Source: Thermomonas paludicola
Lineage (GTDB): Bacteria; Pseudomonadota; Gammaproteobacteria; Xanthomonadales; Xanthomonadaceae
Assembly (NCBI RefSeq): GCF_024498955.1
Contig: NZ_CP093311.1
Location: forward strand, 434,001-498,000
Length of the DNA stretch: 64,000 nucleotides
Reading direction: 5' to 3'
Part shown: positions 55,790 through 59,002 of the stretch, piece after piece
Position numbering within the stretch: the first letter of the stretch is position 1
Layout: each line of letters begins with the position of its first letter
The notes under the pieces: generated by a model
Seen by the model: the letters and a program-made list of their open reading frames with translations, nothing else
What the model was told of the DNA's origin: nothing
The model's database searches: none
Program-made: the position numbers and the translations under genes

Positions 55790-56659
55790 CTAATCCAGTT
55801 CGCGGTGGTGCACCGCCACGTCCACCCAGCCGGTCTCGCGGCAGTGGCGCGCCATGCGTTCGGCCAGATACACGGAGCGATGGCGGCCGCCGGAGCAGCC
55901 GAAGGCGACGGTGGCATAGCTGCGCGTTTCCGAGCGCAGTTTGGGGAGCCAGGTGTCCAGGAAACCTTGCACCTGGGTCATGTAGGTGGTCACTTCCGGC
56001 TGTGCGTCCAGATGCTCCAGTACTTCGGGGTCGCGGCCGGACAAGGGCCGCAGGCGCGCGTCCCAGTGCGGGTTTGGCAGGACGCGGGCATCGAACACGA
56101 AGTCGGCGTCGGCGGGCACGCCATGGCGGTAGGCGAAGGATTCGAACAGCAGCGACAGGCCCGCGCCCCCCAGGCCGAATTCGGCCTGGATGCGGCGGCG
56201 CATCTGGTGGATGTTCATTTCGCTGGTGTCGATCAGGATCTCGGCAATCTGTCGCAGCGGCCGCAGTGCTTGCCGGTCCAGCGAGATGGCGTCCGCCAGC
56301 GCCAGCCCGAGGTGGCTCAGTGGGTGCCGGCGGCGGGTATCGGCATAGCGACGCAACACCACTTCGTCGCGGGCCTCCAGATAAAGCAGGCGCGGATTGG
56401 CGCCCAGTGCGCCGGCCTGCGACAGCGCCATCGGCACATCGGCCAGGTCGCCCAAGCTGCGGGCATCAATGACCACCGCGATCCTGGACGGCGCGGCTTC
56501 GCTGGCCTGCATGCGGCGGACGAATTCCGGCAGCAACTCGGCCGGCAGGTTGTCCACGCAGTAGTAGCCCAGGTCCTCCAGCGTGTGCAGGGCGCCGGAC
56601 TTGCCCGAACCGGACATGCCGCTGACGATCACCAGCGACGGCGCAGGCGCGGTGCTCAT
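55790..56659 (-). CDS. rapZ: RapZ RNase adapter / nucleotide-binding protein
   Basis: 289 residues. Walker [21 protein letters not shown] at residues 10-29, then [21 protein letters not shown] and the C-terminal [18 protein letters not shown]. coli RapZ controls GlmS via sRNA decay; outside enterics its target is less clear. Its start overlaps the hprK stop (4 bases). Confidence 0.95.
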
Positions 56660-57612
56660 GGCGACGCGTGCTCGAGGAAGTGGCTGTGCCGGGCCATGAA
56701 GGCGGCCGCCGGATCAATCCCCTTGCTGCGCAGGATGTGCGTGCGCGTGGCGGCTTCGGTGAGGACCGCAAGATTGCGCCCGGCCATCACCGGGATGGTG
56801 ATCATCGGCACGTCCAGATCCAGCACGCGGCGGGTGCCAAGGTCGCCGGTCAGGCGCTCCATGCCGCTGCTGCCGGGATCCAGCGATGGCTTGCCCAGGT
56901 GCACGATCAGGCGCAGGTACTTGTTTCGCTTGACCGCGGTGTCGCCGAACATCTGCCGGATGTTGAGCACGCCCAGCCCGCGCAGTTCCAGCATGTCCTG
57001 CAGCAGTTCGGGGCAAGCGCCGTCCAGCACGTCGGGCGCGATCTGGGTGAATTCGGGCGCGTCATCGGCGACCAGGCGATGGCCACGGGTAACCAGTTCC
57101 AGCGCCAGCTCGCTTTTGCCCGAGCCGGATTCGCCGGTGATCAGTACGCCGATCGAATAGATTTCCAGGAACACGCCGTGCAAGGTGACGCGCGGCGCCA
57201 GGGTGCGCGCCAGCACGTATTGCAGGTGGTTCAGCAATTCATGGCCGCGACGTGGCGAGACCCACAGGGGCGTGTCGGATTCCTCGGCGGCAATGCGCAG
57301 GTCTTCCGGGCACGACTGGTTCTTGCTGATGACCAGCGCCAGCGGGCGAAAGTCGATGATCTTGTGGATCGTTTCCCAGCGCTGGCGGGCGTCCAGCCCG
57401 TCCAGCCATTCCAGTTCTTCAGTGCCGAGGATCTGCACGCGATTGGGGTAGATGGCATTGAGGTAGCCCGCCAGCGACGGGCGGCGGGCCACCGTGTCCA
57501 CCGCCTCCAGCACCCGCTGGCCACCGGTCTGCTGGCCGGCTAGCCAGCGCAGCGCCAGCCGCTCGTGCTGGATGGTGAACAACTCCGCCGCGGTGATGCG
57601 TGCCGTGGTCAT
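56656..57612 (-). CDS. hprK: HPr kinase/phosphorylase
   Basis: 318 residues. Phosphorylates or dephosphorylates HPr on Ser-46. N-terminal domain plus the catalytic P-loop [29 protein letters not shown] and the HprK signature [20 protein letters not shown]. Standard length. Thirty-eight bases separate it from the upstream hpf, with no ptsN in between. Confidence 0.96.
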
Positions 57613-57650: not shown

Positions 57651-57974
57651 TCAGTCCAGCGAGAGCTTGGACAAGCCTTCGCTGCGGCGCTGCTCGAGGT
57701 GCTTTTCCTTGTGCTTGATCAGCTGGCGGTCGAGCTTGTCCACCAGCAGGTCGATTGCGGCATACATGTCCTGGCCGGCGGCATCGCCATGCAGGGTGCG
57801 GCCGGAGACATTGATGGTGGCGATGGCCTTGTGTTCGGGTTTCTCCAGCGCGAGCTGGACGCGGATTTCACAATCGCCTTCGAAGTGTCGGCCGAGCCGC
57901 TCGAACCGGGTTTCCACGTAGCTGCGCAGCGCAGGCGTGACCTCGAGTTGCTGGCCGTAGGTTTCGATCTGCAT
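57651..57974 (-). CDS. hpf: Ribosome hibernation promoting factor (short HPF)
   Basis: 107 residues. Short HPF/RaiA type: [20 protein letters not shown], then [22 protein letters not shown] and the C-terminal [18 protein letters not shown]. It binds the 30S subunit and helps form inactive ribosome dimers in stationary phase. The start is fixed by a strong AAGGAGGT (complement of 57979-57986) 4 bases upstream of ATG 57974. The frame stays open upstream to GTG 58202, but that part is the rpoN remnant and not HPF. Confidence 0.96.
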
Positions 57975-58034
57975 CTTGACCTCCTTCTGCAGTGTGCCGC
58001 GGGCGGGCTGCCCGCAGCGGTGGGATGCACCGGC

Positions 58035-58172
58035 CAGGCCGATGCATGCACGCTCGCGCGATGCCGGGGTCTGCAGGGTGCCACGGTGGTTCGCCACCGT
58101 GCGCCTGATCGCCGGCACGCCTTTCACCTTCAACGTATCGGCAAGCGGGGCATCCGACAAGGGCCTGAGTGC
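58035..58172 (-). pseudogene. rpoN: Remnant of rpoN (sigma-54) C-terminus
   Basis: Between lptB and hpf, the standard location of rpoN, the minus strand encodes ALRPLSDAPLADTL, KVKGVPAIRRTVANHR and GTLQTPASRERACIGL consecutively. This aligns with the RpoN C-terminus: the PLSD-x-x-LA-x-x-L helix, a glycine-valine-proline turn, the RpoN box (family ARRTVAKYR, here IRRTVANHR at 58083-58109), and the SRERR-type end. Only about 45 codons survive; upstream of them no RpoN similarity is seen, and the normal stop is gone so the frame runs into hpf. It is almost certainly non-functional. The rest of the 308-base interval, 58173-58282, holds nothing I recognise. Confidence 0.83.
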
Positions 58173-58282
58173 ATTTCGTTGCCAGCCGGTCGTTGAATCC
58201 ACCCTTGGATGGCGCTGCGGAAGGCACTGCCGCCAAGGCTGGCGCCAACGGCGACGGAAAACCCTGCGACAGCGCGCGCCGG

Positions 58283-59002
58283 TTACAGGTGGAAGCCTTC
58301 GCCGAGATACACGCGGCGCACGTCCTGGTTCTGCAACAGCGCCTCGGGCGCGCCCTGCGCAAGCACCGCACCCTCGGCGAGGATGTAGGCGCGGTCGCAG
58401 ATATCCAGCGTCTCGCGCACGTTGTGGTCGGTGATCAAGACGCCGATGCCGCGCTGCTTGAGGTGGCGCACGATGCGCTGGATTTCGTTCACCGAGATCG
58501 GATCGACGCCGGCAAAGGGCTCGTCGAGCAGGATCATGCGCGGCTTGCCCGCCAGCGCGCGGGCGATCTCCACGCGGCGGCGTTCGCCACCGGACAGGCT
58601 GGCGCCCGGCTGGTCGGTCACGTGGCCGATCTGCAATTCGTCCAGCAGCGCATTCAGTTCCTGCTCGCGGCCGTCCTCGTCCAGATCCGGGCGCAGTTCC
58701 AATACCAGGCGGAGGTTGTCGGCGACGCTCAGCTTGCGGAACACCGAGGGTTCCTGCGGCAGGTAACCCAGGCCCAGCCGCGCACGCGCATACATCGGCA
58801 TGCTGGTGATGTCGGTGCCATCCAGCAGGATGCGCCCGGCATCGGCGGCAACCAGTCCCACGATCATGTAGAAACAGGTGGTCTTGCCGGCGCCGTTCGG
58901 GCCCAGCAGGCCCACCACTTCGCCGGGCTCCAGGGTCAGGCCGAAGTCGCGCACGACTTCGCGCGAGCGGTAGCGCTTGCGCAGCCCTTCCGCGACCAGC
59001 AT
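58283..59002 (-). CDS. lptB: LPS export ABC transporter ATP-binding protein LptB
   Basis: 239 residues. ATPase of the LptB2FG complex that drives lipopolysaccharide from inner to outer membrane. Walker [18 protein letters not shown]-loop [11 protein letters not shown] signature [16 protein letters not shown], Walker [13 protein letters not shown], and the switch His in [12 protein letters not shown]. Shares one base with the lptA stop. Confidence 0.97.

Follow-up and report, generated by a model that had tools for sequence, protein, structure and literature searches.

Thermomonas paludicola has lost the sigma-54 gene rpoN1 between lptB and hpf, and its genome keeps an intact second copy, rpoN2, together with sigma-54 activators. 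From the sequence, we consider it probable that the paralogue RpoN2 has taken over and that the 3' end of rpoN1 was kept as the promoter of hpf.

We analysed a window of 64,000 nucleotides from this genome, which is assembled in one contig of 2,717,354 bases (genome G000, contig C1). The genes of the locus all lie on the minus strand. lptB (58283..59002; NCBIfam TIGR04406, 382.5 bits, cut-off 240) is separated by a gap of 308 bases from hpf, encoding the ribosome hibernation-promoting factor (57651..57974; TIGR00741, 93.7 bits, cut-off 40.9; Pfam PF02482). Downstream are located hprK, encoding HPr kinase/phosphatase (56656..57612; TIGR00679, 322.1 bits), and rapZ (55790..56659; NF003828, 333.5 bits). 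Both the genome profile search (26.3 bits; E 9.3e-6) and the protein scan (27.0 bits) exceeded the curated cut-off (22.8 bits) of the Pfam profile Sigma54_DBD within the gap, matching model positions 117-158 of 160. The genome match is at G000:C1:492050-492175 on the minus strand (window 58050-58175). The profile search thus bears out the RpoN C-terminus that the initial annotation had read in this gap.

Through DNA alignment to intact rpoN1 genes of relatives, we traced the remnant (58035..58277, minus strand) from 58277 against genome G018, and from 58235 against G003, G022 and G002 (a start also reached with G018), down to 58037-58035, once the stop codon and now reading CTG. The part 58035-58235 is well supported and 58236-58277 weakly: aligned to six relatives, the 124 nt preceding the conserved block scored 39-51, where the best of 500 shuffles reached 30-35, and the first 65 nt alone were not beyond shuffles (score 31 against G018; best shuffle 35). 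The likeness therefore continues upstream of the stump, where nothing had been noticed on reading by eye because a 1-nt gap near 58177 shifts the frame. About 67-81 codons are left of roughly 475, if G018 RpoN1 is read from its first methionine. Most of rpoN1 was indeed deleted as first proposed, but the missing share is about 83-86% and not 90%; the large loss stands, and a single deletion is indistinguishable from several.

Of 40 codons compared between the remnant and intact G018 rpoN1, 13 had changed non-synonymously and 4 synonymously, against 2 non-synonymous and 11, 16 and 16 synonymous changes in three intact rpoN1 pairs compared in the same way. The remnant is a pseudogene in which constraint on the protein is relaxed, and the view that the loss was not very recent is supported. 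Neither the activator-interacting and core-binding domains nor an intact frame was found in it, the 308 nt being too short and the frame shifted.

Searching the whole genome for another rpoN, as the initial annotation had advised, we found an intact gene of 490 aa at G000:C1:1368894-1370366. All three domains were matched (AID, CBD and DBD; PF00309, PF04963 and PF04552), TIGR02395 scored 319.8 over a cut-off of 277.35, and the RpoN box ARRTVAKYR is present. The gene order is fliC-fliD-fliS-rpoN2-receiver-domain regulator-fleQ-fliF-G-H-I, where the fli names are our reading of the proteins and FleQ is backed by PF06490. In Xanthomonas campestris, rpoN1 is reported to belong to a phosphotransferase cluster and rpoN2 to a flagellar one (PMC7280030); we call the copies here rpoN1 and rpoN2 because the naming there follows these two positions. 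The second copy was assigned as RpoN2 of the Xanthomonas type by gene order alone (flagellar cluster, beside fleQ). The intact rpoN2 rules out a loss of all sigma-54, and a relocated rpoN1 is ruled out by the gene order and by 37% identity to RpoN1 of G018.

Four strong sigma-54 activators (216.9-246.8 bits) were revealed in G000. The first is FleQ (PF06490), and NtrC scored above one equivalog cut-off (675.1 vs 558.6) and below another (560 vs 620). Another activator adjoins a histidine kinase in the PilS/PilR layout; no PilR model fired, and we infer from the layout that it is PilR-like. No pilin was found in G000 with PF00114, nor when the regions flanking the PilS/PilR-like genes were scanned with a motif. 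Eleven prepilin-like genes were detected with PF07963, and the two best, which we examined, are type IV pilin-like genes in tandem at G000:C1:388634-389174. A -24/-12-like site, TGGCACGATTCATGCG, stands 112 nt upstream of the ATG of the first of the two, the best pilin gene; the site matches 9/11 letters and was equalled in 60 of 5000 shuffles; the same check gave 6/11 letters for fliC, 8/11 for fliD and 8/11 before fliF. A genome scan for TGGCA-N6-TTGC gave 50 matches against 6 for the reversed pattern, a control unmatched in composition, and the comparison carries no weight. Since NtrC, FleQ, the PilS/PilR-like pair and the pilin site remain, nitrogen genes and pili probably stayed under sigma-54 control through RpoN2. 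The initial annotation had expected that sigma-54-dependent genes must be rewired if no second rpoN exists; with a complete rpoN2 and these activators present, the evidence does not require such rewiring.

Sigma-54 was present in all 25 Thermomonas genomes compared (five assemblies less than 90% complete): sixteen contained rpoN1 only, four both copies and five rpoN2 only. rpoN1 was found before hpf in 20 of the 25 and was missing in G000, G006, G007, G013 and G016, in which lptB and hpf are 145-311 nt apart with the lptB stop codon included. G006 and G007 are T. haemolytica DSM 13605 and T. hydrothermalis DSM 14834. Among 80 named loci of the family, three have no rpoN before hpf, and all three are Thermomonas (L049, L051 and L053). 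Flagellin was detected in nine of the 25 genomes, exactly the five with rpoN2 only and the four with both copies, and in all nine rpoN2 lies beside fleQ. rpoN1 was thus missing in 5/9 flagellate genomes versus 0/16 others (hypergeometric p about 0.002, ignoring kinship). The assembly of T. flagellata (G005, L168) contained neither flagellin nor rpoN2.

A tree of eight neighbouring genes, to which G012 and G020 contribute three of the eight, needs two loss events, and a single loss was rejected (AU p 3.8e-6); rpoN1 was therefore lost at least twice. This tree places G000 and G016 together with support of only 54/48, and a smaller hpf-hprK tree needs three losses. An rpoB tree was dropped, only 17 of the 25 genomes being matched. 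The rpoN2-only genome G016 (L163) has a long branch and an unusual base make-up, which blurs its kinship to G000. We also looked for RpoN2 residues that all five rpoN2-only genomes share and the four two-copy genomes all lack; a single column resulted, with E or a gap in the two-copy genomes, and it is uninformative. One locus titled Tolypothrix campylonemoides, a cyanobacterium (L071), carries a Lysobacter-like lptB-rpoN-hpf-hprK cluster and is probably contamination.

Besides the frameshift and the losses in four other Thermomonas genomes, the initial annotation missed a promoter-like block in the stump (58131..58161, minus strand). In this putative promoter the first box, TTGTCG (58160-58155), stands 17 nt before the second box, TACGTT (58137-58132), inside the rpoN1 remnant. 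The codons for the corresponding peptide PLSDARLADTLK read CTTGTC-N16-GATACGTTG in 16 of the 20 Thermomonas rpoN1 genes, and the windows of this block took ranks 1 to 3 of 314 in departure from the codon usage of the gene. Both of its Leu codons are TTG in 16/20 genes, against 9/20 at the next Leu column. By a plainer measure of synonymous diversity the block was not among the lowest 12 of 370 windows. We scored 72 of the 80 named loci, leaving out three without rpoN1 and five missed by the text pattern: both Leu codons were TTG in 11/13 Thermomonas loci versus 0/59 others, the protein being much alike.

The rpoN stop codon lies 57-65 nt before hpf in eight of the 13 Thermomonas loci; in four it overlaps the hpf start by 1 nt, and one was unplaced. 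In the 59 loci of other genera the distance is 74-444 nt. Among the 20 rpoN1-bearing genomes, five have an rpoN1 frame without a stop before the hpf start (G017, G019, G021, G014 and G015; loci L019, L022, L023, L024 and L025, respectively), and in the named records of four of these the rpoN1 stop and the hpf start share 1 nt.

A motif was built from intact rpoN1 genes only and then scored in the gaps left by the losses. Its best match fell on the same boxes in all five gaps, and no shuffle of 2000 was as good in G000, G006, G007 or G013, and 6/2000 in G016. The best motif score in 31 loci of other genera was 14.8, compared with 28.1 for the full site. The pattern CTTGYC-N16-GATASGTTG, with the two boxes as TTGYC-N17/18-TASGTT, was found in 20 of the 25 genomes, once in each and always just upstream of hpf, with none for the reversed control; about half a chance match elsewhere would be expected over the 25 genomes. 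As the pattern was derived from these same sites, its occurrence in rpoN1 genes is in part built in, and the weight rests on G006, G007 and G013, three genomes that carry it with no rpoN1 coding sequence left. The pattern was absent in G016, where the site is weaker, and in G001, G009, G011 and G023. These last are the four of the 20 rpoN1-bearing genomes without the block (L027, L029, L028 and L037; best motif scores 2.3-6.2), and they must express hpf in some other way.

G006 and G007 have identical boxes but disagree in 62 of 146 other columns (one-sided Fisher p 0.0004; p 0.0006 with G013), although two segments spaced like the boxes match completely at 6 of 148 start positions. In G000 none of 15 box positions was changed relative to each of seven relatives, against 19-32 of 91 downstream bases. 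Taken alone, G000 is borderline, with Fisher p of 0.005-0.07 by relative for the boxes and 0.006-0.11 for the whole 31-nt block.

The simplest reading of this sequence evidence is that the block serves as the hpf promoter. The stump might instead be a plain pseudogene, neutral debris whose likeness among genomes comes from shared ancestry, with hpf read through from lptB or started elsewhere. The frameshift and relaxed protein constraint would fit this, as would the borderline statistics of G000 alone and the four rpoN1 genomes that manage without the block. However, we think it rather unlikely: the same boxes occur in gaps where the rest of rpoN1 has disappeared, they are unchanged between G006 and G007 despite diverged surroundings, and the unusual codons already exist in the intact genes, confined to Thermomonas among the loci compared. 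Even if the stump were such debris, the takeover by RpoN2 may hold.

It is less likely again that the block was kept for a reason other than a promoter, as a regulator binding site or as part of the hpf RNA leader. This idea gains from the weak resemblance to sigma-70 boxes: the site matches 7/12 letters of TTGACA/TATAAT, weak by E. coli rules, and a strict scan (at least 9/12, 16-18 nt apart) found no sigma-70 promoter, which also counts against the reading as hpf promoter. Two short constant boxes around a free spacer of constant length are, however, the layout of a promoter, and no Rfam family fits, the sole match up to E 1 scoring 17.4 bits where the gathering score is 64.5.

As the initial annotation stated, no stop codon precedes hpf: the frame is open from GTG 58202 through hpf, an ORF of 183 codons (57651..58202, minus strand) in which Sigma54_DBD and HPF were the only domains matched by the protein scan. 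One could therefore imagine that stump and hpf are translated together into a single protein, an HPF extended at its N-terminus. We regard this as very improbable, and the ORF as one unit is probably untranslated, for its GTG lies upstream of the putative promoter, the protein constraint of the stump is relaxed, and hpf has kept its own ribosome site, as had been recognised: a strong Shine-Dalgarno sequence, AAGGAGGT (57986-57979), aligned in relatives, before the ATG at 57974. An assembly or sequencing artefact is hardly credible, for although the exact remnant is known from one genome only, that genome is a single contig, comparable losses exist in four other assemblies including two type strains, and the decay of the sequence is diffuse with no clean break.

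Returning to RpoN2 takeover with a retained promoter, we might describe the course of events as follows. rpoN and hpf lie so close together in Thermomonas that the hpf promoter would fall in the last rpoN1 codons. In flagellate members, RpoN2 of the flagellar cluster may have become sufficient, so that rpoN1 could be lost; RpoN2 would now serve activators of the NtrC and PilR types besides FleQ. A deletion of rpoN1 would have had to leave the 3' end, and the stump probably survives because the last rpoN1 codons contain the promoter of hpf. The 3' end of the dead gene would now provide hpf with promoter and leader; the protein sequence it encoded decays, and the two boxes persist unchanged. On balance we lean towards this fuller account, in which the 3' end became the hpf promoter when rpoN and hpf moved together, at least two losses spared that end, and RpoN2 became the general sigma-54.

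Comparable systems are known. In Pseudomonas aeruginosa, hpf is reported to have a promoter of its own inside rpoN (PMC7764885). The arrangement proposed here is similar, with hpf downstream of rpoN and its putative promoter inside rpoN coding sequence; unlike in P. aeruginosa, where rpoN is intact (PMC7764885), the Thermomonas block outlives its host gene and belongs to one genus of the family among the loci examined. Thermomonas and X. campestris agree in where the two genes lie, rpoN1 with the phosphotransferase genes and rpoN2 with the flagellar ones; X. campestris keeps both copies, reported as not interchangeable (PMC7280030), whereas here rpoN1 is lost and only rpoN2 is left. As in Ralstonia solanacearum, there are two sigma-54 paralogues with divided labour, but rpoN1 and not rpoN2 is needed there for twitching and competence (PMC4371752), and it is rpoN1 that was lost here. 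We found no paper on Thermomonas rpoN in the open literature, which was the scope of our search, most subscription papers lying outside it.

From mutants of R. solanacearum and X. campestris, the sigma-54 paralogues are reported to be not redundant or interchangeable (PMC4371752, PMC7280030), and Thermomonas is therefore a useful natural test. Its genomes form a natural series, with rpoN1 only, both copies or rpoN2 only, in which one may ask whether specialised sigma-54 paralogues can substitute for each other. The block would also give a sequence-level reason why the end of a deleted gene survives, namely codons in dual use with the promoter of a neighbour.
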